A stretch of 37,379 bases of DNA from positions 1 to 37,379 of the forward strand of contig NZ_JNBA01000003.1 of assembly GCF_000760295.1 (NCBI RefSeq). The letters run 5' to 3'. The notes beneath the pieces are model-generated. The model had not been told where the DNA came from, did no database searches, and saw only the letters and a program-made list of their open reading frames with translations. This stretch comes from Prochlorococcus sp. MIT 0701 (lineage in GTDB: Bacteria; Cyanobacteriota; Cyanobacteriia; PCC-6307; Cyanobiaceae). Shown here in pieces: positions 15,564-29,819 of the stretch; within the stretch, counting starts at the first letter, position 1; each line of letters opens with the position of its first letter. Made by a program: the position numbers and the translations under genes.

Positions 15564-16499
15564 TCAGTCAGTCGACTCATCGAGACCACTCACCCATGCC
15601 TCCAGCCCCTCACCAAGGAATGAGAGACCCAGCACCAATACGAACATGGCCAGGCCTGGATAGAGAGCAGTCCACCAAATCCCAGTTGGCACTGCTGCCA
15701 GAGCCATATTCAGATCACTACCCCATTCAGGCACCGTTTCCGGCAGTCCCAGGCCGAGAAAACCAAGGCCACCAAGCACCAAAACCGCATCAGCAGCATT
15801 CATGGTCAGCAGTACTGGCACGGATGTGATCACATTGCGAAGCAAGTATTTGCGCAAAATCCAAATGGGGCCAGCACCAAGGGAACGGGCAGCCTCCACA
15901 AACAGTTCTGCTTTTACCTGGGCTGTTTGGTTACGAACCACGCGGAAGTACTGGGGCACATAAACAACACAAAGGGCTGCGGCCGCATTGGGAATACCCC
16001 TTCCAAGCAAAAAAGCCAAGACCACAGAAAGCAAGAGCACCGGCAAGGTGTAGAGGGTGTCCATCACCAACACCAACATGCGGTCAAAAGCACCTCCGAG
16101 GTAGCCACTCATCATCCCTAGGGGCACCCCCACCAACACAGCCAAGGTCACCGCAAGAAGAACCACCTGCAAAGCCACGCCACTACCCTCCATGGTGCGA
16201 ACACAGACGTCCCGTCCGAGACGATCAGTTCCGCACCAATGCCCCCATGAAGGAGCCGCATAAATGGGATTATCAAGACCAACATTGGCCTCAGGCAAAA
16301 CACCCACCATCACCAACAAGGGGGTGATTAAGGCCACCAACAGATAGATGGCAACAATCACCATCCCCCAGCGCGCCATGCGAGTCGACAAGGTCGCTCG
16401 TGACAGACGCAGAGACGAAAGGTCAAAGCTCACTGCTGAAGGATGAGACAGAACAGTCTCTGCATTGTTGCTAGGGCGGCTGACAACGTTGCAACTCAA
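15564..16499 (-). CDS. ABC transporter inner-membrane permease, DppC/OppC-like
   Basis: Up to 311 residues. A binding-protein-dependent transport permease of the peptide/nickel (DppC) type, with about six membrane helices and the cytoplasmic EAA loop EAARSLGAGPIWILRKYLLR that contacts the ATPase. GTDRLGRDVCVRTMEGS is a hallmark of the DppC side of the pair. No DppB, ATPase or binding protein is nearby, so the rest of the transporter must be encoded elsewhere. The start is uncertain: the ATG at 16499 overlaps the histidine kinase end by 29 bp, and an internal ATG at 16379 (MARWGMVIVAIYLL) lies just before the first helix. Confidence 0.88.
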   Translation of the reverse strand: MSCNVVSRPSNNAETVLSHPSAVSFDLSSLRLSRATLSTRMARWGMVIVAIYLLVALITPLLVMVGVLPEANVGLDNPIYAAPSWGHWCGTDRLGRDVCVRTMEGSGVALQVVLLAVTLAVLVGVPLGMMSGYLGGAFDRMLVLVMDTLYTLPVLLLSVVLAFLLGRGIPNAAAALCVVYVPQYFRVVRNQTAQVKAELFVEAARSLGAGPIWILRKYLLRNVITSVPVLLTMNAADAVLVLGGLGFLGLGLPETVPEWGSDLNMALAAVPTGIWWTALYPGLAMFVLVLGLSFLGEGLEAWVSGLDESTD

Positions 16500-17982
16500 T
16501 CACAAAGATCGCTCCACCATCATCAGCATTCTCAACCCAAACGCGGCCTCCCATCCGCTTCACCAACGAGCGCACAAGCGCTAGACCAACGCCACTGCCA
16601 GGTTGTTGTGTCGTGTTACTGCCGCGCTGAAACTGCTCAAAAATCAGCTCCTGATCAGCCTCTGGCACCCCGGGGCCATAATCTCGAACTTGCAATCTCA
16701 CATGCTCATGCGTGCTAATGCAGCTCAATTCAACTCGCTTGTCTTCTGGGCTGTACTTGAAAGCATTCTCAATCAAATTGCCAAGACACTGAACGACCCT
16801 GTCGTGATCACCAAGAGCCCAGGTCTGATCAACACCGTGTGAACTCGATTGCATTTTCAAGCGAGCCTCATGATCACCTTGGTTCAGCAAAAGCACCTGC
16901 TCTAAAGTCTCAAATACGGAAAAAGGCTCTGACGTAATCACCAGAGTGCCAGACTCCTCACGCGCAATATCTAGTAGATCAGTGATTAACCTTCCGAGAC
17001 GGCGCGTCTCATCATCAACAATGGTCAATTGATGCCGCTGATCTTCACTGAGATTTCCTGATCGGCGCAAAACCCTGGAGGTATAGCCAATAATCAAAGT
17101 AATTGGTGTGCGCAGCTCATGGCTGAGAGCATTGGCAAACTTCCTCTGATGATTCCAAGAATCAGCCAAATGATCTAAAAGCGCATTAAACGAACCGGCA
17201 AGCGGCTTAAGTTCCAAAGGTTCATATTTCGGATCACAGCGATGATCATCGAGAGATCCAGACGAGACTGATTCGATCACTCCGCCAAAACGCTGCAAAG
17301 GCTCCAAACCTCGTCGAATGCCTGTACGCGTGAGGAATAAGGTCACCATCGAAGCAAGCAAAGCAGCTAGAATAAGAATTATGGTTACAATATTTTGCTG
17401 GCGGATCTGACGACTAACATCCTGCAGCAGGTAAATATTCCAAGTATTTCCATGCAGCTCAATTTCATCTTTAATGATTGAGTAATAAGCTGAATCAATA
17501 TCAATAAGAACAGGCCCATATTTGGAATCACCCTGATACTTTTGCATATCATAAGAAGCTAAAATCTTGCCAAGATTGACACTTCCTCTCACATCAGGCA
17601 TCACAAAGCCAGCCTCAAACCCCTTGGGGTGCATTGAAATCAGAAGATGAAAAGATGAGAAATCACTCAGCAATCTCTTCAGCAAAAGTCGATCAATACT
17701 GTCTTCAGATGCCGATACCGAATCGGCGCGAAGGATCAAATCCTTCGACTGACGAAGAATAGCCTTGGCATAGTTAAGGTCTTCCCGCTGAGCCTGCCGG
17801 CGCTGTTCAGCCGGGAGCTGCAGATTAAACAACAATAACAAGCCATATCCCAACCCCACAGCCATCAAGCTGGTGCGCTCTAGAACGCGGCGAATCGAAT
17901 AAGGCGGATGCCTAAAATTGATCCAGGCCCGTCTTACCCTAAATGATTTAAGAAGAAGGTTAAGGTCCAACCAAAAACTCAT
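16471..17982 (-). CDS. Membrane sensor histidine kinase
   Basis: 503 residues. Topology: helix 1 at about 38-54, an extracytoplasmic sensor region of about 140 residues with no recognised fold, helix 2 at about 198-218, a HAMP-like linker, then HisKA and HATPase domains. The phosphoacceptor is His288 in ALSHELRTPITL. ATP-lid boxes are clear: N box (NLIENAFKYSPED), G1 (VRDYGPGVP), F (LIFEQFQRG), G2 (GSGVGLALV). It should autophosphorylate and pass phosphate to a response regulator, but none is encoded in the window. The start (ATG 17982) lies 65 bp downstream of a perfect TGTGA-N6-TCACA palindrome. It sits between the ABC permease and the pilin genes, same strand as both. Confidence 0.92.
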   Translation of the reverse strand: MSFWLDLNLLLKSFRVRRAWINFRHPPYSIRRVLERTSLMAVGLGYGLLLLFNLQLPAEQRRQAQREDLNYAKAILRQSKDLILRADSVSASEDSIDRLLLKRLLSDFSSFHLLISMHPKGFEAGFVMPDVRGSVNLGKILASYDMQKYQGDSKYGPVLIDIDSAYYSIIKDEIELHGNTWNIYLLQDVSRQIRQQNIVTIILILAALLASMVTLFLTRTGIRRGLEPLQRFGGVIESVSSGSLDDHRCDPKYEPLELKPLAGSFNALLDHLADSWNHQRKFANALSHELRTPITLIIGYTSRVLRRSGNLSEDQRHQLTIVDDETRRLGRLITDLLDIAREESGTLVITSEPFSVFETLEQVLLLNQGDHEARLKMQSSSHGVDQTWALGDHDRVVQCLGNLIENAFKYSPEDKRVELSCISTHEHVRLQVRDYGPGVPEADQELIFEQFQRGSNTTQQPGSGVGLALVRSLVKRMGGRVWVENADDGGAIFVIELQRCQPP

Positions 17983-18437: not shown

Positions 18438-19043
18438 TCAAGCAGAGGCCGCTGAACGGATGCGCTGCATCTTCCCGTCAGGGGTCTGAAACTGCTGCTC
18501 CAGTTCAAGGCGCAACACCGGCAGGAGTGGGTCCTGACGAGCCACAAAACCAAGCTCGCCATCACTGAGCGAGGAAGGCAAGCCATCGATCAGCACACGG
18601 TTCTGGAAGCTGCCTGCGAGGTTAGGCTCGCCGTTGATGTCAAACGCCGGGCCACAGCGCATCAACACCTGGCTGCGCCAAATCGGCGATGGAGCAGGTC
18701 CAACCGAGTAGATGATGGCTCGTCGACGAACTTCCGGATCATCTGGTGCTGTAGCGATAGCCAACACAGGCTGACGACCAGCCAAAGAACAAGGCCAAAG
18801 GTTGGAGATTGGCGGATCAGCCAGCCAGCCATAGCCGCGCGCCAAGTCGGCCTTGATCAACATCAGGGTGCGTTTCTGAAGGCCCCGCTCACGCAGGCGC
18901 TGGGCCATTGCATGACCAAGGGAAAGATCTCTAGTGATCACGCCAAGGGCCATCGCAACAAACAACATCCCCAAACTGATCACCAGCATCAGCTCCACCA
19001 AGGTGAAGCCATCAACAACGCCATCGCCTTTAGAGCACTTCAT
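18438..19043 (-). CDS. PilW/GspJ-like minor pilin
   Basis: 201 residues from ATG 19043. Short basic leader (MKCSKGDGVVDG) followed by the prepilin peptidase site G-FTLVELMLV with Glu5 and a hydrophobic alpha1 helix (FTLVELMLVISLGMLFVAMA). The continuation (RERGLQKRTLMLIKADLARG) and the Cys-containing C-terminal domain fit PilW/GspJ-like minor pilins, which form part of the pilus tip complex that starts assembly. The frame is open to 19073, but the extra residues precede a better start. It overlaps the end of the FimT-like gene by 14 bp and is last in a four-gene unit. Confidence 0.8.
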   Translation of the reverse strand: MKCSKGDGVVDGFTLVELMLVISLGMLFVAMALGVITRDLSLGHAMAQRLRERGLQKRTLMLIKADLARGYGWLADPPISNLWPCSLAGRQPVLAIATAPDDPEVRRRAIIYSVGPAPSPIWRSQVLMRCGPAFDINGEPNLAGSFQNRVLIDGLPSSLSDGELGFVARQDPLLPVLRLELEQQFQTPDGKMQRIRSAASA

Positions 19044-19572
19044 TAGGTAAACAACGTGAACTGCTAAGACCAATTGCTGGATCGAGGGGATCGCCGTCGT
19101 AACGGCCGATACGGCTAACCCCCAAGGGCAGGCTGATCACCAAACAGCGTCGATAAGGGCTGTGAAGACTGCCCAAAACAACGGTTCCACCATCCAACGT
19201 CAAACCATTCGCCGCAAAGCGCATCAGCTGAGGCAAGTTGCTCTGCCAAGTCAGTGGCACTTCAGCGAATGGTTCCTGCAGGCTCAATTGAGAGGACACA
19301 CAAGCTGCCAACTCACTAACAAGCGGCTTCTGCCAACCCTCAGCAGAAACACGCAAACCGCAAGGCTGCCGCTGACTTAAAGCAAAGAGTCGAGCGCGCT
19401 CCAAGCCAAGCTGCAGTCGTCGAGCAGCAACATCCACCTGCAAACGATGGCGGTACTCACCAGCATTAACCAGGCTGAAGCCAGCCAGAACTGCCAGGAT
19501 CGAGAGAATCAGCAACAGCTCCAACAAGCTGAACCCCTGCTCGGCAGGGGCTGCATAGGACAAACGGCTCAT
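19030..19572 (-). CDS. FimT/GspH-like minor pilin
   Basis: 180 residues from ATG 19572. Leader MSRLSYAAPAEQG, cleavage before FSLLELLLILSILAVLAGFS with Glu5 present. The segment after the helix (RLQLGLERARLFALSQRQP) is the typical GspH/FimT motif, and the C-terminal half is beta-rich with a late Cys pair. In some bacteria FimT binds DNA for natural transformation; no DNA-binding motif can be asserted here. The start overlaps the stop of the preceding gene in ATGA, so translation is probably coupled. Confidence 0.82.
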   Translation of the reverse strand: MSRLSYAAPAEQGFSLLELLLILSILAVLAGFSLVNAGEYRHRLQVDVAARRLQLGLERARLFALSQRQPCGLRVSAEGWQKPLVSELAACVSSQLSLQEPFAEVPLTWQSNLPQLMRFAANGLTLDGGTVVLGSLHSPYRRCLVISLPLGVSRIGRYDGDPLDPAIGLSSSRCLPNEVL

Positions 19573-19997
19573 GACTGCGCCTTCAGAGTGGGCCTGCACC
19601 AACCAGTACCCGCGGGCGTAAGCAACTGACGACGTCGAAGCGGCTCAACAGGCGAGCCCTTAAGCGGTTTCGCGTCAATCTCAAGCCAAAGTCCAGCCCC
19701 ATAAGCTTGCCAATGCCGCTCAAGCTCCTCCGGCAAAGGCAAAGCCATATCTGCCGAACGAGAAACGGCGGCAAGATCAAAACGGCAACTCCCATTGGCA
19801 GTGAGAAGCTCAGAACCATGGCCAACACCTGACAACCAACGCTGGCCGGCCAACAACTGCAACTCAACAGACTCAAGCTGCTCCTCTTTGAGCCAACCAA
19901 CATGAGCAGCCAGGCTGGCCTGCCCCCAAACGTGCAGCCCGCTCGTTGCACTGCCAACCAACAACAGTGAAGCCACCATCAGCTCGGTCAAACTCAT
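19569..19997 (-). CDS. PilV-like minor pilin without an encoded leader
   Basis: 142 residues beginning directly with MSLTELMVASLLLVGSATSG, a pilin alpha1 helix in which the initiator Met takes the place of the usual Phe1 and Glu5 is kept. No prepilin leader is encoded: the codons just upstream in frame read A-G-K-A after a stop and offer no start codon. The downstream part (HVGWLKEEQLESVELQLLAG, Cys pair) resembles PilV-like proteins. The ATG overlaps the previous stop (ATGA). Either this protein is inserted without PilD cleavage or the true start is unusual; family assignment is by position and helix only. Confidence 0.65.
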   Translation of the reverse strand: MSLTELMVASLLLVGSATSGLHVWGQASLAAHVGWLKEEQLESVELQLLAGQRWLSGVGHGSELLTANGSCRFDLAAVSRSADMALPLPEELERHWQAYGAGLWLEIDAKPLKGSPVEPLRRRQLLTPAGTGWCRPTLKAQS

Positions 19998-20491
19998 GGC
20001 CTTACCTGCTCAACTGTGACCAGAGGTCGCATCGGCCCAACCTCACGTACAACTGGGCCATCAGGGTCTAATGCGAGCAAAAACGCAGCTCGAGCACCAG
20101 CGTCAAGACGCAGCCTCAAGCGACCTGTGTCACCACTGGGAACCCAATCAATCAAGGACCAAACGTCCTCGCCGATCGTGCCTTGTTGAAGACGACCGGG
20201 ATCAGCATCAGCGCATTGAAAGCCCAAATCGTTCCAACTGCTGGAAGGCCAAGTGAGAAGGCAGGCGTGGGAATCTGTAGCCAGCTGTGCGAAGTGCTGA
20301 GCAGCGGAGCGAAGCTGATCTACGCGCATCCGCTCAGCCGTGCTGATGCGCGTGCGACTACGGCTCAGAAGTGCAAGCGAATGCAGCGAAGTGCTGCCTA
20401 GTAAAATTACAAATGCAGCCGAAAGCGCCAGGGGCAACACCAAGCCAGCGGTGGTGTTTTGACAACAGCCCCGATGGCGATAGGAAATCAT
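19994..20491 (-). CDS. PilX-like minor pilin
   Basis: 165 residues from ATG 20491 (MISYRHRGCCQNTTAG); an earlier ATG at 20536 is possible. The N terminus is a basic leader followed by a Gly and a hydrophobic helix without Glu5 (LVLPLALSAAFVILLGSTSL), the pattern of PilX/GspK-type minor pilins. The rest (ERMRVDQLRSAAQHFAQLAT, then Cys-bearing segments) is globular. It is the first gene of the minus-strand unit and its start faces the plus-strand pilin operon across a 369-bp spacer. Confidence 0.7.
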   Translation of the reverse strand: MISYRHRGCCQNTTAGLVLPLALSAAFVILLGSTSLHSLALLSRSRTRISTAERMRVDQLRSAAQHFAQLATDSHACLLTWPSSSWNDLGFQCADADPGRLQQGTIGEDVWSLIDWVPSGDTGRLRLRLDAGARAAFLLALDPDGPVVREVGPMRPLVTVEQVRP

Positions 20492-20860
20492 CTCAAAACA
20501 ACAACTACGACAAGGATTCCCCGCTGCCGCAGGCAAGCAGCAATCGCAAACGATGATGATCTTGATCAGTAAGAAGCCAAGAGATCAGTCCGGCAAAAAC
20601 CTTCTTAACAAGGCGTTGAGATCAATCAACAGCGATAGCAATCGGCAAACAAGCTTCGGATTACTCAAAGCCTGAGAGGCCAGAGGCCAAAGCAGATCAG
20701 CTCAAGGGCAAAAGGATGAAAGAAAGCACTCGCGCCAACAGTCAACGAGCCTCTAAGCCGGCTCAAAGAGAACTCTCAGAGAAGCCTTAGAGGATCCTTC
20801 ACCACAAAATCGCCATAGCAAGGCAATATAATGAAGCCAATATTGAAATTGCATATCACC
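20492..20860. promoter_or_regulatory. Divergent pilus-operon control region
   Basis: The spacer between the two pilus operons must hold both promoters. On the plus side TATAAT lies at 20827-20832, placing a start site about 20 nt before ATG 20861. Just upstream is a long imperfect inverted repeat: CCTCTAA (20750-20756) pairs with TTAGAGG (20787-20793), extended inward by GGCT/AGCC. It could be an operator or an RNA stem-loop. No NtcA-type GTA-N8-TAC site was seen. Confidence 0.5.
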
Positions 20861-21328
20861 ATGAGCATCCTCAACCAACAGCTAAAGCTTGCGCTGTTGA
20901 GACGCCAGAAGGGAGCTAGCGCTTTACAGCAAGGCTTCACCCTGGTGGAGCTGATGATCGTGATTGTGATCGTTGGCATCCTGAGTGCGGTTGCCCTACC
21001 TCAATTCACCGGGATTAAAGAAAAAGCCGAACTCAACACACAACTCGGTGAAGGAGCTGGCCTTGCCAAAGAATGCGGCGCAGCAATCATTACCGACGGG
21101 CCATATCCTGAGAATTATGTGTCACTAACACCAAGCACAGGCCTAGTGATCTCTGGCAATTGCAATGATGGATCTGGTGGTGCGCCATCCAGAGCCATCA
21201 CCTACACCACCCAAAAGAGTGATGCTGACGGCAGAGCAAAATGCAACGGTGAAGCATTAAAGAAAGACAAGTCATGCATTATCACTGTAAACGCAACTAC
21301 CGGGCAAGTTTCACAAGCATCAAGCTGA
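20861..21328 (+). CDS. Major-type type IV pilin (PilA-like)
   Basis: 155 residues with a 25-residue leader ending LQQG and cleavage before FTLVELMIVIVIVGILSAVA, the classical type IV pilin helix with Glu5. The mature pilin is about 130 residues with four cysteines, the last two (KCNGEALKKDKSC) probably forming the C-terminal D-loop disulfide; the tail is Ser/Gln-rich. I prefer ATG 20861 to ATG 20831 because the latter overlaps the -10 element. It is probably the main structural pilin of this locus and is separated from the next gene by a strong hairpin. Confidence 0.9.
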   Translation: MSILNQQLKLALLRRQKGASALQQGFTLVELMIVIVIVGILSAVALPQFTGIKEKAELNTQLGEGAGLAKECGAAIITDGPYPENYVSLTPSTGLVISGNCNDGSGGAPSRAITYTTQKSDADGRAKCNGEALKKDKSCIITVNATTGQVSQASS

Positions 21329-21606: not shown

Positions 21607-22131
21607 ATGAAGCTACTTTCAAGGCAAATAGATAGTGAACTAACTAGCGCCTTTACGCTTGTAGAAGTGCTGCTTACGGTAGTAATTATGGGAATCCTCA
21701 GCGCTGTAGCGTTGCCGAATTACTTTACCCAAGTACAGAGAGCTAAGCAAAGTGAGGCTGTCGCCATTCTGGCTCAGATACAAAACACCCTGGCAGCCTA
21801 TATCGATGAGTTCAATAAAATCCCCACTGGCTGGGCCGAACTGAATGACATCGCAGCGATCATGACAACCAGCGGACCGGCAAGTCTTACCACTTTCGGC
21901 TCAATCAATCTGCCTGGAGGCAATTACACGTTAAGCCGCACGGACAATGGAGGCAACACTAACTACTACGAATTTACGGCAAAGCCAACGAGTAAAAATC
22001 CAGAAGTGGCCAAGTTCAATGTGATCGCTTGCATTGATCTTGGAACGGGTGCGAGCGATTTAAAACAGGGTAGGAAAGACAGCAAAAATGCAGCTAGCAA
22101 CGCTGATCTTGTCTGCAGAGGAGATAGCTGA
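21607..22131 (+). CDS. Type IV pilin with Ala at the cleavage position
   Basis: 174 residues. Leader MKLLSRQIDSELTSA, then FTLVEVLLTVVIMGILSAVA with Glu5. The -1 residue is Ala instead of the nearly invariant Gly, which slows or alters PilD processing in studied systems. The body resembles a PilA/PilE-type pilin (LPNYFTQVQRAKQSEAVAIL, then IPTGWAELN, and a cysteine pair in the C-terminal part). The stop TGA shares its last base with the ATG of the next gene (TGATG), so translation is probably coupled. Confidence 0.87.
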   Translation: MKLLSRQIDSELTSAFTLVEVLLTVVIMGILSAVALPNYFTQVQRAKQSEAVAILAQIQNTLAAYIDEFNKIPTGWAELNDIAAIMTTSGPASLTTFGSINLPGGNYTLSRTDNGGNTNYYEFTAKPTSKNPEVAKFNVIACIDLGTGASDLKQGRKDSKNAASNADLVCRGDS

Positions 22132-24038
22132 TGCCTAAAATTAAAAAAGGATTATTGCATCATTACCTCTATTTTTCTCGTCAGAGAAAAGCCCCAAATG
22201 GGGAAGAAGGTTTAGCATTATTGTTAGCATTGCTAACGGGTTTAACCTTACTGACCGGCGCCACCGGATTGCTCATCCGTCAACTGATGGCCAGGAAGCT
22301 AGGGGCATCCGAAAGCTATCAACAGATGGCCGAAGCTGCTGCCGTCAATGGCTTCAATAGAATTCTGAGCAAGCTCAACCAAAATGATCCTGAAAACTAT
22401 AGAGGCTTTCTTTTCACACTCAATAATCAAGAAAATACTAATAATCCCAATAACGGATTCTCCTGGGAACTCATCAATACGACAGAAGCACAACCTCTTG
22501 AAGAGCTATGTACTGACACCTCAATGGGGTTACCCATTCATCCATCCAGCGAAACAGCCAAATGGCCGACAGGCCACGTGGGTGGAGGAAATACAGAAAC
22601 AATTATCTCAGTTCCATTTATTGCTGATGAAACGAGAACCCAGCGTCAGGATGGCAAAGGCAGCATCCAAACATTTTACCGCCTACGTGATTACTTAAGC
22701 CCAGGCAAGAATGGGCTGGGCGAAGGAGTCTTCCAAATTGAAGGCATCGCCAAAAGAGTCGGTTCTTCTGACGAAGACTATTTAGCTCGAACACTTCTAA
22801 TACGCTCATTATACGTCAGCTCAAGTGTTGTAAAGCCTGAGGACTGGGGTGTACTTGCAGCACAGCATATTGATCTTGGCCCTGCAAACATCAGTGGCGC
22901 AGGCCTCATTCTTTGGGACGTGGAATCTCCAAACAGTTTCCAAAAACAAGGTGGATGTGATGCCAACACTCTCATAGGTGACATTCAAGGCCAATCAAGC
23001 GCTGTGGCAGATCGAATTTGGCCAGTGCTGAACAGAGGGCTACCAAGCACAGCTCTTTACGACAAGAACAAAGTCATCGACACGATGCCAAACAACTCAG
23101 GAGCTACGCGTGTATGGAGTATTGATGACACAGGCAACAATTCAAATTTTAATTGCGGTACCGACCAAATTGTCTGTACAAGAGCGAACAACAGCCAGAC
23201 CACATCTGTACCACCAGGAATCCAGATCACTAGCAAAGTCAGCTCTGGTGGTCAAACCTCTCAGCAAGCTTCTAATGGATTCACCTGGGATGCAACTCTG
23301 GCATGTATATACAACTGGTGTTATACAGGCAAACCAACTCTTAGAGATGGCTACAGCTGGTACAGATCGTCAGTTTATTACAAAACCTGGAAATCCTGGA
23401 CAACACAAGAGCAGAAGGAGTGGGAGGTAAGGATCAGGCAGAGTGATATTTGTTCCAATCGAAATGGGGAATGTCATATTTACTTGGAGCACATCAACCT
23501 AAAAAACACGAAAGTATTGATTGAAAATGACAATAGACCGATAGTTTTGCACCTTGAATTACCTATCTCAGGTTCTACCCAAACGAATCTAAGTAGACGT
23601 ATAGAACTATCAGAGAGCAGCCTGCTCTGTGGGGTTGACTCTGGGAAAACCACATGCAACAACCGTCCAGAACGCTTTGTGGTTACGGCTTCGACAGGGG
23701 ATGCACCTAGCGACTGCGATACCAATAGAGTTTTAGAGGATCCCTACGTTTTGAGCATTGCCGGCAACAGTTTGCCTGCTGCATGGGTCGCTCTTGGCAA
23801 AGGAACGTTCACGCTCAGCAGTGATGCAGAGATGCGTGGTGTGATTTGGGCAAATAGCTTCTGCTCACAAGATCACTCACTCAATCTGATCACCGATCGC
23901 GCCGATGGCGGCAAAGGATCTGTCACTCAGGCAGCCGAAGAACTCTGGCAGTGGAGCACTGATGGCTTCAAAGGCTATGGCCGCACCATAGCCCGAGGTA
24001 TTCGAGGCACAGGCCTAGACACGTTCAGGCGATGGTAA
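22131..24038 (+). CDS. Large PilX-like minor pilin with extended C-terminal domain
   Basis: 635 residues. A 27-residue basic leader ends NGEEG; the following helix (LALLLALLTGLTLLTGATGL) lacks Glu5, and QMAEAAAVNGFNRILSKLNQ matches the PilX N-terminal region. Typical PilX proteins have 150-200 residues; here more than 500 residues follow, rich in Asn, Thr, Ser and Cys, like an extracellular beta domain. Around residues 392-423 there is an aromatic cluster (CIYNWCY, then GYSWYRSSVYYKTWKSW). The C-terminal part (PAAWVALGKGTFTLSSDAEM, then RGVIWANSFCS) resembles the C-terminal region of other PilX-like proteins. No known adhesin domain was recognised. Confidence 0.8.
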   Translation: MPKIKKGLLHHYLYFSRQRKAPNGEEGLALLLALLTGLTLLTGATGLLIRQLMARKLGASESYQQMAEAAAVNGFNRILSKLNQNDPENYRGFLFTLNNQENTNNPNNGFSWELINTTEAQPLEELCTDTSMGLPIHPSSETAKWPTGHVGGGNTETIISVPFIADETRTQRQDGKGSIQTFYRLRDYLSPGKNGLGEGVFQIEGIAKRVGSSDEDYLARTLLIRSLYVSSSVVKPEDWGVLAAQHIDLGPANISGAGLILWDVESPNSFQKQGGCDANTLIGDIQGQSSAVADRIWPVLNRGLPSTALYDKNKVIDTMPNNSGATRVWSIDDTGNNSNFNCGTDQIVCTRANNSQTTSVPPGIQITSKVSSGGQTSQQASNGFTWDATLACIYNWCYTGKPTLRDGYSWYRSSVYYKTWKSWTTQEQKEWEVRIRQSDICSNRNGECHIYLEHINLKNTKVLIENDNRPIVLHLELPISGSTQTNLSRRIELSESSLLCGVDSGKTTCNNRPERFVVTASTGDAPSDCDTNRVLEDPYVLSIAGNSLPAAWVALGKGTFTLSSDAEMRGVIWANSFCSQDHSLNLITDRADGGKGSVTQAAEELWQWSTDGFKGYGRTIARGIRGTGLDTFRRW

Positions 24039-24790
24039 AACACACGAGATCTGGTGCGAACCTAAAAAAAGATCGATGGAATCAAACCATTGACAGGATC
24101 CTAAGCAATCACCTGCTTAAACCATATTTCAAACAAATTCATTGGATAAGACTTAGCCAACAAAAACAAGGCTCATGTTCACCTAGAGAAAACACTAGGC
24201 GAATCATTACAAATCAGCTAAGACTTTTCAGTACCAGCAGCAATAGCAATCAAACAGATCAGCAAAATAGGGATTCTGGCTTCACCATGGTGGAAGTCCT
24301 GATTGCTGGTGTGTTGCTGGCCATGGTGATGACTGCAGTCAGTAGGTTCTCCCTTTCAGCACTAATCAACAGCAGGAATCAACTGGAGCGAACTCGTATA
24401 GAAGCAGCAATTAATGACAACATTCAGCTCTTGCAACAAGCTGACTCTCTACTTACTTTTGACTCAATCCCAAGCCAAGATGAGCAGCAATCTGCCTGTA
24501 ATGACCCTCCTAATTACCTGAAAGAGCAAATCATTGAGAGCGCGGGTCGACAATATGTCCCAGCTCCAAATCTCAAGAATGAATCAAACAAACAACTGAT
24601 CAATAGAACAGTTAATACCACCGCTGCAGAAGAAATTGCGGTTGTCATCTACAGCTTTGAAGGGCCAGGAGCAACAACAGTTGCCGACAACGATTCTGCT
24701 GAGCTACTCCATGAAACTGAGATGAAAAATGCTACTGAACAAAGAGTGCTGGAACTCAATCCAAATTTCCAGGCGAGGTGCTACAAATGA
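24032..24790 (+). CDS. PilV-like minor pilin with 83-residue leader
   Basis: 252 residues. The cleavage site DSG-FTMVEVLIAG comes only at residue 84, so the cytoplasmic leader is 83 residues long, basic and Ser/Gln/Asn-rich; usual leaders have 6-30. No ATG lies between the start and the site. After it come a PilV-like helix with Glu5 (FTMVEVLIAGVLLAMVMTAV) and NSRNQLERTRIEAAINDNIQ, then a globular part with few cysteines. The ATG overlaps the end of the PilX-like gene by 7 bp and the stop overlaps the next ATG in ATGA. Confidence 0.83.
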   Translation: MVKHTRSGANLKKDRWNQTIDRILSNHLLKPYFKQIHWIRLSQQKQGSCSPRENTRRIITNQLRLFSTSSNSNQTDQQNRDSGFTMVEVLIAGVLLAMVMTAVSRFSLSALINSRNQLERTRIEAAINDNIQLLQQADSLLTFDSIPSQDEQQSACNDPPNYLKEQIIESAGRQYVPAPNLKNESNKQLINRTVNTTAAEEIAVVIYSFEGPGATTVADNDSAELLHETEMKNATEQRVLELNPNFQARCYK

Positions 24791-25419
24791 AAAACTTACG
24801 TTCTGATCAACACACCTCGCAGGGTTACAGCCTGCTAGAGCTTTTGGTTGTGATCACAATTGTAAGTATTTTATCTGCGTATGGGGTACCAAAATTTCGC
24901 CGAAATGTAGCTCAAGGACAGGTGGATCGCTACACACAATTTGTTGAATCTGGTTTGTTCAGCTTGCGGGCAAGATTAGGACAGTCAAAATCAAGCTGCA
25001 GCTTTAGCCTTGATCAGGATCTAAGCCAAAAAACATTTGGACCACCTTGGCTTCTGCTGGAATTTCAACAACCTGATGGCTCTCAAAGTAATACTCAACG
25101 TCTGAAGTGTTGCTGGAATCAAGATGGGGAGATTGTCAACTGCACACCCGAATTGCTAAAAGGAAAATCACGTTATCGCTTTCTCAGTATTGAAGGAACC
25201 AGAGAGTCAAAAGAGGTCGAGGTGTCTGCGTCACAAGCCAGCTATGAATTATCACCGCCGGGAACAAGCGCACAACATGACAATCTCACGATCCTAGTTA
25301 GATCTCGACATAGTGCCCAAGAGCCTCTGCTGAGAACCCGATGCGTGGAGTTCTCAGGCAATGGCCATATCCAAAGCGGAACCTGGAATGATGACACTGA
25401 TTTCTGCGACAGCAGTTAA
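24787..25419 (+). CDS. FimT/GspH-like minor pilin
   Basis: 210 residues from ATG 24787, overlapping the previous stop by 4 bp. Leader MKNLRSDQHTSQG, cleavage before YSLLELLVVITIVSILSAYG with Glu5. The body has a helix then beta-rich part with several cysteines (LKCCWNQDGEIVNC; a C-terminal pair at RTRC and DFC). By position and motif it corresponds to the FimT/GspH slot of minor-pilin operons. A hairpin (GATTGAGA and TCTCAATC, 25459-25482) lies in the 111-bp gap before the next gene. Confidence 0.8.
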   Translation: MKNLRSDQHTSQGYSLLELLVVITIVSILSAYGVPKFRRNVAQGQVDRYTQFVESGLFSLRARLGQSKSSCSFSLDQDLSQKTFGPPWLLLEFQQPDGSQSNTQRLKCCWNQDGEIVNCTPELLKGKSRYRFLSIEGTRESKEVEVSASQASYELSPPGTSAQHDNLTILVRSRHSAQEPLLRTRCVEFSGNGHIQSGTWNDDTDFCDSS

Positions 25420-25458
25420 TCGTTGTCTTCAGACAATCTTCAGGAAACATTCACAGCT

Positions 25459-25482
25459 GATTGAGAAAAAAAGATCTCAATC
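25459..25482. repeat. Inverted repeat before the vWA pilin gene
   Basis: An 8-bp perfect stem (GATTGAGA/TCTCAATC) with an A-rich 8-nt loop. It stands in the 111-bp gap between the FimT-like and the vWA pilin genes and could be an attenuator or partial terminator that sets the level of the last gene. Confidence 0.35.
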
Positions 25483-25530
25483 CTGTCATCGTTAAACCAT
25501 CAAAAGCCATAGTTCTATGGCACTTGATCC

Positions 25531-27105
25531 ATGAAACTGCTAAAGAACCTTTATCAGCGCCGATCTCATCCTTTGCCTACCAATGGTTTTGGGATGTCTG
25601 AAGCCGTCGTCGCAGCGGGGGCAGGCATTCTGCTAATCGGAGCATCCTCATTAGCGCTGCGCTCAACGCAGACATTGATGGATAGGGCTGAAAGCAAGGC
25701 AACCCTGCGGCAAAACACAACCAATGGCCTTCGCCTGCTGCGATCAGAAATCGAACGGAGTATCCATATCCTGGTCAATAACAGCGACGCTGTACCAGCT
25801 GGAATGGAACATACCGATATGGCAAATGAGCAATATCAAGACACTCTCCAGCAATGTGGTCTGCTCGCAGAAGCTCGACATCAAGTGTTCAAGCCAGTCT
25901 TCGGCATCAAGATGGCTGAACTGAACACACCAGTTCTTTATGGGCTCAGTGTTAATTCAAATAAAGCAGGCTATGCCCTGATGCGATGTGGTGCTCCTCT
26001 AAGCCTTGATGGACGCTATAGCGAAACAGAAGATGCATTTATTGCCAAAGCAATTGAAGATATCGGAGTAATGAAATGCACAAAAAATGAAGGTGATTGC
26101 GAGCACTTAACAAACAATGAGGGTGATATTAAAAGTCTCAGAGAAGTCATTGAAGGCCTTGATGTGACCTTTACATCTGACAGCACGCCAGTACGCACCT
26201 TTATGGAGCCGGCTCTTGGCGTGATGACTGATAAACAACGCAAGTTGGTAAAATTCACTGATCCGAACCCCAACAACGACCCAGAGAAATTTGAGACTGA
26301 GAGTTATCTTGAAGCCATCAGTGCTGCACGCATAATTACCAAATATCCACTTTATCTTGCGGCATTCGCCAGAGCAGACAAGCGTATTGAGCACTATGGA
26401 GATGATAGCAATGGTGTACTTAATGGGGCCTACTTCCGCAATGTGAAAAGCAAGCACATCCGCTTCCTTGTTGATGGCTCAGGCTCAATGAGTGCTTGCA
26501 TCCTTTGGGGGAGTACCTATGGCAACTGGAAAATATATTGGAGTGGAAGTTACTATTTCTGGTCACGTCAGAACTGCGCCTTAACCAGAATGGAATCACT
26601 GCAAACTGAACTCACCAGCTTACTTACAGCACTTTCTCCAGATACAAAAGTCAGCATCCAATCCTTCAGCTCACCAGGTCGGAAAAACCACAAAGTTTGG
26701 GAGCAATCAAGCAATGGCTTGATTAAAATTGGAAATGATGGTATGCGCGAATCCGCAATCGCATTCGTTAATTCACTGGACAATGGTCGTCCCACAAAGT
26801 GGGGCGGAACCTATCCATGGGAAGGATTAGATGCCTCTTTCAAAGACAACGAAACGGACACACTTTACTTCCTCTCAGACGGGGAGCCTAATGCCGATCG
26901 TATGGGCGGTAGCTGGCAAGCCAATGATCATGACCCTACAGTTGCTCACTATTCAAACTTCAACAACACACGAGAACAGGTACTCAAAACAAACACGATA
27001 GCCCTTGGATTAGAATCACCTTGGATGGAGAAATTATCAACTAACACCACAGGTGACTATCTACAAATCGATAAGGATTACGTAACAACCAATTCCAGTC
27101 AATAA
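25531..27105 (+). CDS. PilW-like pilin fused to a von Willebrand A domain
   Basis: 524 residues. A 19-residue leader ends PTNG, followed by a pilin-type helix (FGMSEAVVAAGAGILLIGAS, Glu5 present) and NGLRLLRSEIERSIHIL, a PilW-like continuation. After a middle domain of about 220 residues, a vWA domain begins at about residue 308 with the full MIDAS metal site: Asp315-x-Ser317-x-Ser319, Thr427 (KWGGTYP) and Asp450 (FLSDGEPN). Between Cys323 and Cys349 lies a loop with nine aromatic residues, absent from ordinary vWA domains and a likely ligand-binding surface. The whole resembles a tip adhesin carried on a minor pilin. It ends 11 bp from convergent lepA. Confidence 0.88.
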   Translation: MKLLKNLYQRRSHPLPTNGFGMSEAVVAAGAGILLIGASSLALRSTQTLMDRAESKATLRQNTTNGLRLLRSEIERSIHILVNNSDAVPAGMEHTDMANEQYQDTLQQCGLLAEARHQVFKPVFGIKMAELNTPVLYGLSVNSNKAGYALMRCGAPLSLDGRYSETEDAFIAKAIEDIGVMKCTKNEGDCEHLTNNEGDIKSLREVIEGLDVTFTSDSTPVRTFMEPALGVMTDKQRKLVKFTDPNPNNDPEKFETESYLEAISAARIITKYPLYLAAFARADKRIEHYGDDSNGVLNGAYFRNVKSKHIRFLVDGSGSMSACILWGSTYGNWKIYWSGSYYFWSRQNCALTRMESLQTELTSLLTALSPDTKVSIQSFSSPGRKNHKVWEQSSNGLIKIGNDGMRESAIAFVNSLDNGRPTKWGGTYPWEGLDASFKDNETDTLYFLSDGEPNADRMGGSWQANDHDPTVAHYSNFNNTREQVLKTNTIALGLESPWMEKLSTNTTGDYLQIDKDYVTTNSSQ

Positions 27106-27116
27106 AAAGGCCATAA

Positions 27117-28931
27117 TTAACTTTCCTGATTTAGCTTCAACACAGCCATGAATGCTTCCTGAGGCACATCCACTTTGCCCATGGCCTTCATCCGTTTTTT
27201 ACCCTTGGCCTGTTTCTTCAGTAACTTCTTTTTTCTTGAGATGTCTCCGCCATAACACTTAGCAAGCACATCCTTGCGCATGGCACTGATGCTCTCGCTG
27301 GCAATAATGCGACTACCAATGGATGCCTGTAAGGGAATTTTAAACTGTTGTCTTGGGATCAGCTCCTTGAGTTTCTCCACCAGACCCTTACCAATACTAT
27401 AAGCCTTATCACGGTGCACAATTGTGGTAAGTGGATCAGCCTTTTCTGCATTGATCAAGACATCCAAGCGCACCAGATCATTGCGGCGATAGCCAATCAA
27501 GTGATATTCCATTGAGGCATAACCCTTTGTGCGACTCTTCATCTGATCAAAGAAATCCGTCACCACCTCAGCCAAGGGCAGCTCATAAATTAAGGTGACT
27601 CTCTCAGTGGTGATGTACTTCATATCAATGTATTCACCACGCCTTTCCTGACACAAACCCATCAGAGTGCCGTTGTACTCATTGGGGGCATAAATCTCCA
27701 TCCGTACATAAGGCTCCTCAATTGATTCCCGCTTCTGCGGATCTGGCAATGTTGCAGGATTGTCCACCATCAACATGTCCCCATCAATCATATTCACCTT
27801 GTAGATCACTGAAGGAGCAGTAACGATCAAATCCAAGTCGTATTCACGCTCAAGCCGCTCCTGCACAATCTCCATATGCAGGAGTCCTAGAAAGCCACAA
27901 CGAAAGCCAAAACCCATCGCACTGCTGGTTTCAGGTTCATACTTCAATGCCGCATCTGAAAGCTGCAGCTTGTCAAGCGCTTCCCTTAGATCTGGATATT
28001 GATCTGCATCCGTAGGGAACAAGCCACAAAACACCATCGGCTTTGCCTCGGTGTAACCAGGCAGAGGCTCATCTGCTGGGGAATTGAGGAGCGTAATCGT
28101 GTCTCCAACCCGTGCGTCAGCAACCGCCTTGATCGAGGCCGCCAGATAACCCACCTCCCCGGCATGAAGTTCATTGACCTCACACTCATCTGGTGACATC
28201 ACACCGATCTCATCAAGCTCATAGCTCTTCTTGCTGGCCATCAGCAACACTTTGTCCTTCGTGCTAATCCGGCCACTGATCACCCGGAAATAAACAATCA
28301 CGCCTCGGTAGGAGTCGTAGTAAGAATCGAAGATCAGTGCCTTCGTTGGCTCATCAAGGGAATCTGCAGGGGGCGGGATACGATCCACCACCGCCTGCAT
28401 AATCTCTGGTACACCTAAGCCTGTTTTGGCAGAACAGGCAATTGCTGTTGAAGTGTCAAGACCAATGATCGCCTCGATCTCCTCTTTAATCCGTTCTGGA
28501 TCAGAACCCGGCAGATCAATCTTATTGAGCACTGGAATAATCTCTAGATCGTTTTCCAGCGCTAGATAGACATTTGCCAAGGTCTGGGCCTCAACACCCT
28601 GACTGGCATCCACCACCAACAGGGCCCCCTCACAGGCCTGCAAGGAGCGGCTCACCTCATAAGAGAAATCCACATGGCCAGGGGTATCGATCAGGTTGAG
28701 CACATAGCTTTCGCCATCGGCAGCCGTGTAGTTCATCCGGGCAGCCTGGAGCTTGATCGTGATGCCCCGCTCCCTTTCCAAATCCATGTTGTCGAGAAAC
28801 TGCTCCTGCATATCCCGACCGGCCACCGTGCCAGTGTCCTGCAACAGCCTGTCAGCCAAAGTCGACTTGCCGTGATCGATATGGGCAATGATGCAGAAGT
28901 TCCTCAAGCGAGAAACGGGAACGTCGGTCAT
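27117..28931 (-). CDS. lepA: Elongation factor 4 (LepA), ribosome back-translocase GTPase
   Basis: 604 residues, full length. GTPase motifs: G1 [15 protein letters not shown]3 [15 protein letters not shown]4 NKIDLPG, followed by EF-G-like domains and the LepA-specific C-terminal domain ([20 protein letters not shown]) in place of EF-G domain IV. It acts on the ribosome during initiation or stalled translocation. ATG 28931 gives the family start [20 protein letters not shown]. It is transcribed towards the pilin cluster and shares an 11-bp gap with the vWA pilin gene. Confidence 0.97.
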
Positions 28932-29185: not shown

Positions 29186-29819
29186 AGCAAGAAGCTCTCT
29201 TTAAAGAAGAAAAGTCAAAGCCAGCAAAACAACGGCGAAGATTCCGAGCCTCTCCTAGAGGAAAATCCAACTGCTGAACCATCAAGTAATCACGACATGA
29301 TGAATTTCGATGATCTACTTAACAACGTGGCAGACAACTACGATGAGACCAACGCGATAGCATCAGGATACATTAACTTCGCACAAGATGGAGTCAATAC
29401 ATTAGTGAGTTTTGATGCTGGTGGCAGCACTTGCGACAACAATAAGGGAGTTGTTATCGCAACGCTTCAAGATGTGAGCGCTTCAATCCTGAGCACTGAT
29501 AATATTGATTCGGATTATTCATCCGGTAGGCTTAGATCCAATCACTGGAACAATAGAAACACAAGCTGAAGAATATTCAATCGCTACAGCTGGAGGGGCA
29601 ACTGATGCAATCATCAATTCAAGTGATGATGCAATCGCAACTTTAACAACATTAGGAGGAACTAATGCTATGGACACATCTGGGGCCATCGAAGCAGTAA
29701 CAATTCCAACAACAACATCTGAGACGACGACATCTACGACATCCCCTACATCAACAACATCAGAAGCGACAAGTTCAACCGATATCGTCACAGCAGCGAT
29801 AGCCACTGCCGTCGATTAA
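29186..29819 (+). pseudogene. Frameshifted remnant of a large type I-secreted adhesin
   Basis: Two overlapping open frames, 29297-29569 and 29505-29819, together read as one protein end. The first (open from 29186) contains ASGYINFAQDGVNTLVSFD, then VIATLQDVSASILSTDNI, a close match in pattern to C-terminal domains of RTX/VCBS-type giant adhesins exported by type I systems (FxQDGxDTLxxxD, then TLxxVxxSxLTxDN). Shortly after that the frame ends, while the next frame continues with PVGLDPITGTIETQAEEYSI and a long Ser/Thr-rich tail. A single indel near 29505-29530 would join them. It may instead be the truncated 3-prime end of a gene whose bulk has been deleted. Confidence 0.5.

Follow-up and report, generated by a model that had tools for sequence, protein, structure and literature searches.

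A minor pilin with a C-terminal von Willebrand A domain as a candidate pilus-tip adhesin in Prochlorococcus

RESULTS

A vWA pilin gene closes a conserved minor-pilin operon

The window, the whole 37,379-nucleotide stretch of Prochlorococcus sp. MIT 0701 that was analyzed, contains at 25531-27105 on the plus strand a single unbroken open reading frame of 524 amino acids, which is the last gene of a conserved minor-pilin operon (Table I). All 17 named related loci have an I-like and an H-like gene ahead of the vWA gene, and 16 have a K-like gene there too; in both the window and the named relatives the order of K-, I- and H-like genes followed by the vWA gene is that of the second minor-pilin set on the opposite strand. 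The pilA1 cluster of Synechococcus WH7803 (L060) keeps the whole series in unchanged order, closing with the vWA pilin and with lepA beyond it, so that the form is not unique to the organism of the window. By gene order against WH7803 (PMC7994388), the first pilin of the plus-strand series is probably the major pilin PilA1. Three matches to PilB/PilT-type ATPases are present in the genome.

Table I. Features of the two minor-pilin sets and of the vWA pilin
Feature	Position	Strand	Basis or detail
Short J-like pilin (211 aa), lacking an effector module	18438..19073	-	Shares RCG-x6-G with the vWA protein
H pilin, second set	19030..19602	-	Pfam GspH 9.1e-8, over cut-off
I-like pilin, second set	19569..19997	-	By order; no Pfam match
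K-like pilin, second set, without Glu5	19994..20536	-	By order; no Pfam match
Pilin, 165 aa, first of plus-strand series	20831..21328	+	N_methyl 1.1e-8
Second pilin, 174 aa	21607..22131	+	Below cut-off: ComP_DUS 5e-5, GspG model 3.5e-10
K-like minor pilin, 635 aa, without Glu5	22131..24038	+	Sequence, synteny; no family match
I-like minor pilin	24032..24790	+	N_methyl 3.1e-5; assigned largely by elimination
H-like minor pilin	24778..25419	+	N_methyl 6.1e-6; GspH 4.3e-5 below cut-off, not its best model
Probable J-type minor pilin with C-terminal vWA	25531..27105	+	Leader 1-19, pilin module ~20-280, vWA ~300-515
Prepilin peptidase site GFGMSE, codons 19-24	25585..25602	+	G19/F20, Glu at +5
MIDAS motif 1, D315-x-S317-x-S319	26473..26487	+	Sequence, alignment
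Insertion between invariant Cys323 and Cys349	26497..26577	+	Modeled strands 323-337 and 342-352, right after MIDAS motif 1
MIDAS Thr427 (WGGT)	26809..26811	+	Sequence, alignment
MIDAS Asp450 (SDG)	26878..26880	+	Sequence, alignment
lepA, flank outside the cassette	27117..28931	-	Sequence, synteny

Among the H-I-J-K assignments only one model, GspH for the H pilin of the second set, scored over its cut-off. The I-like gene at 24032..24790 drew several models, all below cut-off (HpsC 3.1e-5, PRK10557 0.0077, type II secretion protein J 0.012 and gspI 0.017), and its start is matched about equally weakly by I and J models. A blastp comparison between the K, I, H and J genes of the two sets gave nothing significant, and an HMM of the vWA-form pilin barely set the short J apart, at E 0.0065 against 0.011 for the I-like pilin and 0.013 for PilA. 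The parallel between the two K-I-H-J sets therefore rests on order, size, the lack of Glu5 and weak models.

One polypeptide combines a prepilin leader, a pilin module and a vWA fold

The N terminus of the 524-residue protein has the features of a class III leader, with Gly19 at -1, Phe20 at +1 and Glu24 at +5, and the hydrophobic stretch that follows the leader (G19/FGMSE) reads AVVAAGAGILLIGA. Some relatives have the canonical GFTLPE or GFTATE at this position, and in the 29 rows of alignment A2 the glutamate lies at +5 from the aligned glycine in 15 and at +6 in 13; one row starts within the leader. The model of the pilin module (pTM 0.75) predicts a helix at 5-58, its start at low pLDDT, followed by strands, and in the AlphaFold2 model the low-confidence segments are the helix at 18-45 and the linker at 282-296. 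Residues 309-513 of the latter model form alternating strands and helices of the vWA type, which superpose on the heavy chain 1 of inter-alpha-inhibitor (6fpy_A) with a Z score of 17.3 and an rmsd of 2.4 over 162 residues. The only structural row above it, at Z 17.4, bears the title B19V capsid. Thus the original prediction of a pilin and a vWA domain in one polypeptide is borne out by the single reading frame, the leader motif and both predicted folds, the structure prediction that it called for having placed a vWA fold in the C-terminal part.

Family models recover these modules in relatives. Even at E up to 1, Pfam gave no family, PF05567 included, for the window protein itself, which also matched neither N_methyl nor TIGR02532, the latter being weakly matched by 6 of the 19 rows of alignment A3. 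With an E threshold of 1, VWA_2 is matched by 27 of the 29 A2 rows (best 4.8e-4) and VWA_3 reaches 1.1e-5 among them, neither with a match in the window protein; the vWA and N_methyl models are thus reached by relatives only. Both halves are under purifying selection, with dN/dS values of 0.14 and 0.14 against the orthologue in G003, where dS is near saturation, and of 0.16 and 0.21 against L047.

The MIDAS is complete and invariant in two alignments

The five MIDAS residues proposed in the original prediction (D315-G-S317-G-S319, T427 and D450) carry the right numbers, are all present, and are invariant in both A2 (29 rows) and A3 (19 rows), each of which includes the window protein; A2 leaves out L006, which has no vWA, and L007, which lacks the last MIDAS aspartate. 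The chance that five random columns in the region 300-524 would all be invariant is 2e-4 in A2 and 3e-5 in A3, values that are indicative only since conserved columns cluster. Of 11 small-genome homologues inspected, 3 (L107-L109) have a degenerate MIDAS, and a fourth, L081, has serine in place of the threonine. In the model, the insertion that follows the first MIDAS motif may form an arm pinned by a disulfide between Cys323 and Cys349.

A PF13519 search for exported vWA proteins elsewhere in the genome gave two matches; one we take to be the Mg-chelatase subunit ChlD, and the second lies in a 153-aa reading frame without a visible leader. The model also misses the protein studied here, so it may overlook a divergent vWA domain.

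The pilin carrier resembles J-type minor pilins

Structural and profile comparisons point, with moderate strength, to a J-type (GspJ/PilW) minor pilin as the likely carrier of the vWA domain. The best seven structural rows obtained with VIA for the pilin module are J-containing pseudopilin entries (9a1f, 5bw0, 3nje, 5vtm, 3cfi, 6utu and 2ret, of which 3nje is XcpW by title), at Z scores from 7.3 to 5.8 that, lying under 8, are moderate, the J chains in the complexes having been judged by length and numbering. Only VIA put J-containing entries first, and Foldseek gave no row for the pilin module with E below 0.3. A profile of the RTX-form pilin, built without either window protein, matched the vWA protein at E 2e-13 and the short J at 1.4e-14 over ~150 residues each (E-values calculated for 15 proteins), versus shorter stretches near the start at E 7e-7 or worse for the other window pilins. 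With hhalign, the profile of the vWA-form pilin aligned to the short J over 65 columns (E 3e-5, probability 73%), compared with 10 and 12 columns at 6% and 1% for the I-like and H-like neighbors, respectively. Judged by these profiles, the vWA pilin and the short J of the second set belong to a common pilin family. The gspJ model gave no match; PRK10557, found in 7 of the 19 A3 rows (best E 0.0072), was dropped as evidence for a J identity because the I-like neighbor matches it as well.

Relatives carry other modules, and the locus probably recombines

Near-full-length matches to the vWA form were found in 42 of 400 genomes of the same family, 5 of the 42 having one in-frame stop within the match. 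The other 358, some of them incomplete genomes, have no such match, so piliation in general does not depend on the vWA form. The same type of pilin continues into RTX-like repeats, in one continuous match, in 23 of the 400, and in one relative a low-complexity tail stands in place of the vWA domain. Further long J-like pilins, in L095, L096 and L099-L101, have unnamed C-terminal parts. The J-type module thus probably serves in these relatives as an interchangeable tip, its C-terminal part being a vWA domain in some, RTX-like in others and a low-complexity tail in one.

In a tree of the pilin module (which L106, its leader missed by the motif search, entered from its first residue), the Synechococcus-type and small-genome vWA pilins form separate groups, and a single vWA-pilin clade, as one origin of the fusion would give, is not rejected (p-AU 0.33; several long branches flagged). 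Exchange of the vWA domain by itself between close relatives was considered and rejected, since in a sliding window the synonymous divergence falls at ~360-400, inside the vWA domain. The whole upstream cassette is divergent and the tail is as similar as lepA, a pattern that we read as homologous recombination at the edge of the cassette and not as domain swapping.

PilY1 was not found in the cyanobacterial genomes searched

PilY1 (PF05567) was found neither in the genome of the window nor in that holding L063, in searches in which no control genome matched, nor in any of 386 cyanobacterial genomes, in a run in which the controls were silent; a PF05567 search matched 38 of 75 control genomes, 35 of them above cut-off, the controls being the class of the genome that holds L063. 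The search for a separate PilY1 called for in the original prediction thus came back empty, with none in the same genome and 0 of 386 cyanobacteria versus 38 of 75 controls. The further proposal of a cyanobacterial tip adhesin replacing PilY1 stands in part: the vWA fold, the failure to find PilY1 and the PilB-like architecture all agree with it, and the site at the tip and the adhesion are what we infer from them.

DISCUSSION

Taken together, these data make it reasonably probable that the protein is the J subunit of an HIJK priming complex of a type IV pilus, with a C-terminal vWA domain exposed at the tip as a MIDAS adhesin. PilD would remove the leader by cleavage behind Gly19, and the pilin helix would insert beside the I, H and K subunits from the same operon, such that the growing pilus would push the HIJK complex outward as its tip with the vWA domain exposed. 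There the MIDAS would coordinate Mg2+ or Mn2+ and, together with the adjoining Cys323-Cys349 arm, could engage a ligand carried by particles or by other cells; chitin, which some low-light Prochlorococcus use, was considered in this role. Such a pilus would need no separate PilY1, and since the carriers of relatives present RTX-like repeats, the J slot would act as an interchangeable mount.

The likeness to PilB of Streptococcus sanguinis, which the original prediction drew, fits the architecture: on one chain, both join a class III leader and a pilin module to a MIDAS-bearing vWA domain at the C terminus. PilB is described as having a canonical MIDAS flanked by arms, as using its MIDAS-vWA for adhesion, and as modeled to be compatible with the tip only (PMC8179133). 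In the window protein a putative arm between two invariant cysteines follows the first MIDAS motif. An intact MIDAS is not proof of ligand binding, because PilB is reported to bind fibronectin and fibrinogen without metal (PMC8179133). The settings differ, PilB belonging to a monoderm in which the tip has three subunits, A-B-C (PMC9934059), whereas here the carrier looks J-type and belongs to an H-I-J-K set of a diderm. A sequence search of the PDB at E up to 1 returned 0 chains for the protein and two chance matches for its profile, with no vWA or pilin chain; PilB was absent by title among the 50 matches listed in the structure searches, an absence that carries no weight.

The pilin module also resembles GspJ/XcpW/EpsJ and PilW in its predicted fold and in its place in the minor-pilin series; to our knowledge those subunits have no vWA domain. 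The vWA fold is shared with LapA, whose vWFA structure (9no5) is among the structural matches, and with CglB, the model of which matches 7 of the 19 A3 rows (best E 9.4e-4), and we know of neither LapA nor CglB as a pilin. In gliding myxobacteria, CglB serves as a surface adhesin and has a von Willebrand domain (PMC13104615). PilY1/PilC of Proteobacteria and Myxococcus is likewise a tip protein on a minor-pilin complex, with a vWA domain in Pseudomonas (PMC8179133), but it is a separate non-pilin with a C-terminal beta-propeller (PF05567), which was not found in the window protein.

Modular pilins with vWA domains are therefore already known from S. sanguinis PilB, and the present protein is a variant on what is probably a J-type carrier. 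New here are that probably J-type pilin part, the alternative modules in relatives and the count of 0 PilY1 in 386 genomes. In openly licensed PubMed Central papers, preprints aside, we found nothing on modular pilins with RTX repeats and, for modular pilins with von Willebrand domains, none that was cyanobacterial by title. A query on minor pilins, von Willebrand domains and cyanobacteria led to a review of gliding in which the von Willebrand passages concern CglB (PMC13104615). The WH7803 paper names the pairs PilA1-PilE, PilA2-PilV and PilA3-PilW and marks other genes "?", of unknown function, and its accessible text contains none of the terms "PilY", "von Willebrand", "vWA", "VWFA" or "MIDAS" (PMC7994388).

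It is unlikely, though worth weighing, that the vWA domain is a mechanical or regulatory element for surface sensing or the control of pilus assembly and retraction, its MIDAS serving conformational switching and not adhesion. In Pseudomonas, PilY1 and minor pilins are described as modulating FimS-AlgR activity (PMC5979040), a histidine kinase lies in the window at 16471-17982 with similar open reading frames in 10 of the 17 related loci (kinases being widely alike), and such cells are said to seldom meet surfaces (PMC7994388). However, the link to the kinase is one of proximity alone, and the RTX-like repeats or low-complexity tail in relatives favor an exchangeable presentation over a conserved switch.

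We regard it as very improbable that the operon forms a type II secretion-like pseudopilus whose vWA-bearing J subunit handles a secreted substrate. The structures nearest to the pilin module are GspJ-type pseudopilins, but GspJ and PilW-type pilins are related, so the structural match cannot separate type II secretion from type IV pili. Against a pseudopilus, a PilA-type pilin opens the series, and PilA1 of the corresponding WH7803 cluster is reported to make up as much as 25% of the exoproteome, the mutant being without long pili (PMC7994388).

Equally hard to credit is a vWA module acting as DNA receptor for natural transformation, for which minor pilins serve in other bacteria (PMC12288463). 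The second pilin of the operon does weakly match ComP_DUS, below cut-off, but the plain short J-like pilin of the second set would be the better candidate for DNA uptake. Nor do we know of vWA or RTX modules as DNA-uptake receptors.

A J subunit that carried its adhesin to the tip would bear on a question raised in a 2025 review, according to which it is difficult to say, for DNA uptake in cyanobacteria, which minor pilins might make up a tip complex, and a better grasp is needed of how these pilins shape the function of the pilus (PMC12288463). The present analysis names a concrete candidate tip set with a putative exposed adhesive module and suggests where the role of PilY1 went in a phylum in which none was found. 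The pili of suspended picocyanobacteria are reported to affect sinking and grazing (PMC7994388), and if they had a dedicated tip adhesin, one would have to ask what such cells hold on to. Because WH7803 has a homologue, and pilin genes have already been knocked out there (PMC7994388), the idea is directly testable. More tentatively, and with somewhat less than even confidence, J might be the fixed subunit of an HIJK tip that mounts a Mg-type vWA, a Ca-type RTX roll or other tails at a site prone to recombination, frequently next to lepA, and so replaces PilY1 in picocyanobacteria. If this were true, the tip chemistry of ocean cyanobacteria would be set by the exchange of alleles and modules at a single locus.

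The vWA protein carries a prepilin leader and an intact MIDAS

The vWA protein is encoded at window 25531-27105 (+) by 524 codons in a single open frame without interruption. The original prediction had placed a prepilin leader and a vWA domain with a complete MIDAS, the five-residue metal site, motif on this one chain, and its coordinates and residue numbers proved correct when frame and sequence were re-read. Residues 19-24 are GFGMSE, followed by AVVAAGAGILLIGA; with Gly at -1, Phe at +1 and Glu at +5, this reads as a class III prepilin leader. All five MIDAS residues are present (D315-G-S317-G-S319, T427 and D450). The protein matched no Pfam family at E up to 1, and its single NCBIfam match was weak and irrelevant. 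The MIDAS residues are invariant in a 29-row alignment that includes the window protein and omits two homologues (L006, with no vWA, and L007, without the last Asp), and also in 19 rows comprising the window protein and 18 proteins from 16 of 17 named loci (L056 omitted). Among the 29 rows, Pfam VWA_2 matched 27, VWA_3 10 and VWA 9 at E up to 1 (best 1.1e-5), and the window row matched none of the three. The leader Glu lies at +5 in 15 of these rows and at +6 in 13, and the leader is therefore not canonical across the whole family.

The structure prediction that had been proposed as a check supports the vWA assignment. In an AlphaFold2 model from 19 sequences (mean pLDDT 76.6, pTM 0.48; low confidence in the leader, the helix start at 18-45 and the linker at 282-296), the C-terminal part is predicted to adopt a vWA fold, with inter-alpha-inhibitor heavy chain 1 as a structural match (6fpy_A; Z 17.3, rmsd 2.4, 162 residues, 20% identity). 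One row ranks higher (9c4f_I, Z 17.4, entry title B19V capsid), and the 25 Foldseek rows with E up to 0.001 include the LapA adhesin's vWFA domain. An insertion flanked by invariant Cys 323 and 349 and modelled as two strands immediately follows MIDAS motif 1; Streptococcus sanguinis PilB has two arms beside its MIDAS (PMC8179133), to one of which the insertion might correspond.

Conservation of the protein and its gene series

Within the same family (Cyanobiaceae), the first alignment matched 63 of 400 genomes at E up to 0.001, 42 of them near full length by manual count of matches covering about 500 of 527 positions; seven of the 42 hold two near-full-length copies, and in five the best match has one in-frame stop. 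Across the phylum, full-length matches were seen solely in family f1 (19 of 386 genomes, manual count), and the remaining matches listed comprised the pilin part alone or, in two genomes (G516 and G425), the vWA part alone. Compared with the orthologue in genome G003, dN/dS is 0.14 and 0.14 for the two halves, at a dS of about 1.6-1.7 that is near saturation, and both halves are under purifying selection.

A single scan of named genome contigs yielded 17 loci with a vWA gene, the carriers including Prochlorococcus AG-412-I05 and Synechococcus RCC307, UW105, UW140 and WH7803. I-like and H-like genes lie upstream of the vWA gene in all 17, and a K-like gene too in 16, the remaining locus being L056, a 3-kb contig that begins at the I-like gene. 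Thirteen of the 17 loci contain lepA, and in nine it is the gene immediately after a vWA gene. The L056 contig is filed under Coxiellaceae and another, L063, under Gammaproteobacteria, both with cyanobacterial-looking pilin operons. We take them to be misassigned cyanobacterial DNA, and thus probable binning errors, because the BLAST scores of L056 equal those of a copy in Synechococcus L050 and the L063 lepA is 91% identical to that of the window.

A separate PilY1, for which a search had also been proposed, was not found by its family model PF05567 in this genome, nor in 386 cyanobacterial genomes. The model was silent in the 14 control genomes of that search and matched 38 of 75 genomes (35 over cut-off) in the class of the genome holding L063; the cyanobacterial absence is therefore meaningful, at that model's sensitivity. 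PF13519 detects two further vWA proteins encoded by this genome, and no sign of export was seen in either.

Two minor-pilin gene sets in the window

We read both the plus-strand and the minus-strand genes, from order and sequence features, as K-I-H-J sets, the latter being a candidate DNA-uptake tip set. By blastp, the K, I, H and J genes of the two sets gave no significant match to each other. All six N_methyl matches of the genome fall inside the window, and the vWA protein is not one of them. Three frames in the genome, 646, 403 and 366 aa long, match PF00437, which fits PilB and PilT-type ATPases.

Pilin genes and neighboring features of the window. Set labels, GspH at 19030 excepted, are based on order, size, missing Glu5 and below-cut-off models.
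Feature	Window position	Strand	Remark
Histidine kinase	16471-17982	-	HisKA, HATPase_c; near pilin genes
Second minor-pilin set	18438-20536	-	divergently transcribed; with short J-like pilin
Short J-like pilin, 211 aa	18438	-	last of minus-strand set
H	19030	-	Pfam GspH 9.1e-8; third of minus-strand set
I-like	19569	-	second of minus-strand set
K-like	19994	-	no Glu5; first of minus-strand set in own direction
Pilin	20831	+	first gene of plus-strand series
Pilin	21607	+	second gene of plus-strand series
K-like	22131	+	635 aa, no Glu5
I-like	24032	+	I and J models both match weakly
H-like	24778	+	directly before vWA protein in series
vWA protein	25531	+	last gene of plus-strand series
Small ORF	29297-29569	+	between lepA and next gene

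ORFs similar to the histidine kinase occur in 10 of 17 related loci. The small ORF had no significant Pfam match; its sequence may resemble the end of RTX-type secreted proteins.

The pilin module is likely a J subunit

A model of the pilin module by itself (residues 19-300, built from 19 sequences) reached a pTM of 0.75. Its seven top VIA rows all come from J-pseudopilin-containing entries (9a1f, 5bw0, 3nje, 5vtm, 3cfi, 6utu and 2ret; 3nje is XcpW by entry title), with Z 7.3 to 5.8 over 111 to 150 residues and rmsd 3.3 to 4.2, the matched chains within complexes being taken as J chains from their length and numbering. The next rows were a helix-only match (5.4) and Thermus TTHA1219 (5.3). A VIA Z under 8 is modest, and Foldseek alone gave no significant match for the module.

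The second line for J is the order of the gene series together with kinship to the short pilin at 18438, the last gene of the minus-strand set. When RTX-bearing relatives were used to build a pilin profile, leaving out both the 18438 pilin and the vWA protein, it matched residues 19-168 of the former (E 1.4e-14) and residues 1-169 of the latter (E 8.6e-13 for that stretch), and other window pilins in shorter stretches near the start only (best E 7e-7; E-values for 15 proteins). By hhalign, the vWA-form pilin profile shares 65 aligned columns with the 18438 pilin, RCG-x6-G among them (E 3.1e-5, probability 73%), and 10 (6%) and 12 (1%) with the neighboring I-like and H-like proteins. A plain HMM of the vWA form barely discriminates (E 0.0065 for 18438, 0.011 for 24032 and 0.013 for 20831). 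PRK10557 matches seven of 19 rows but also the I-like protein at 24032, and provides no evidence for J. We regard a J identity as likely, though not proven.

Other modules on related J-like pilins

Eight partial matches in the 400-genome search covered the N-terminal part only, starting at 6-16 and ending at 157-178. Examined in full, G391 proved to be a vWA form; the other seven share the pilin module, their RCG-x6-G being exact or almost exact, and continue into RTX-like repeats. PF00353 was above cut-off in five of six RTX forms scanned, L102 falling below it at 17.9 bits. Another pilin gene precedes each of the seven, its best window match being the H gene at 19030 in two (L071 and L074) and other window pilins in five. 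lepA lies next to two of the seven (L073 and L074), and none was seen in the 4-5 kb around the other five.

A seven-row RTX-form alignment matched 23 of 400 same-family genomes in one unbroken stretch spanning the pilin and RTX parts (manual count), the weakest six or so being of the L102 kind, with repeats below the Pfam cut-off; the search total of 293 genomes consists mostly of partial matches to other pilins or RTX proteins. Six of the 23 are also among the 42 genomes with a vWA form, and all five stretches taken from genomes with both (L102-L106) combine a vWA gene with an RTX-like gene and lepA. One of them (L104, genome G317) has, within 19 kb around lepA, a pair of vWA pilin genes and a single RTX-like pilin gene. 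J-like pilins bearing RTX-like calcium-binding repeats at the position of the vWA occur at L067-L071, L073, L074 and L102-L106.

In the L006 homologue, encoded directly before lepA, the pilin part is retained (45% identical to that of the window protein), but a Q/D/T-rich tail takes the place of the vWA; in the pilin tree this homologue falls inside or beside the vWA rows, with which it groups at 100/99. A third form, found in small-genome relatives, joins a J-like pilin to a diverged vWA. Of 11 such proteins inspected, seven retain D-S-S-T-D, in one the Thr is replaced by Ser, and three (L107, L108 and L109) lack at least two of the five MIDAS residues. Long J-like pilins (399-582 aa) also occur in other cyanobacterial families (L095, L096, L099, L100 and L101), and a Pfam scan of L095, L096, L099 and L101 gave no family beyond N_methyl.

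Precedents and tip location

As the J subunit of an HIJK complex, the pilin module would be located at the pilus tip. S. sanguinis PilB, which mediates adhesion and likewise has its vWA domain C-terminal to a pilin module, was modelled as compatible solely with the tip, and its authors list vWA as one of the 15 most frequent modular pilin architectures in InterPro (PMC8179133). A second paper argues that presenting effectors at the tip is a general role of minor-pilin complexes (PMC9934059). Pili of marine Synechococcus and Prochlorococcus, with the WH7803 pilin cluster, are already published, several cluster genes being marked unknown (PMC7994388), and by gene order the WH7803 vWA gene should be among these. 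The terms von Willebrand, vWA, VWFA, MIDAS and PilY are absent from the text of PMC7994388. In our searches of openly licensed PubMed Central papers we found no description of a vWA or RTX pilin in cyanobacteria and no report of an RTX-bearing modular pilin architecture. Particular to the window system are the J-like carrier, the differing modules on that carrier and the lack of a detected PilY1.

Divergence of the minor-pilin cassette

Synonymous divergence per site between the window and Prochlorococcus AG-412-I05 (L047) is 0.71 in K, 0.70 in I and 0.66 in H, and within J falls from 0.65 in residues 1-60 to 0.14 in residues 401-460; lepA stands at 0.19 and the gene after it (29892) at 0.40. 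Across window 22131-26700, the change in divergence from L047 falls inside the vWA, at about residues 360-400. In the comparison with G003, which covered I, H, J and lepA, J as a whole reaches 0.67, H 0.66 and I 0.64, with lepA at 0.15. Divergence of the minor-pilin cassette thus greatly exceeds that of lepA, a pattern that an exposed, exchanged structure would be expected to show.
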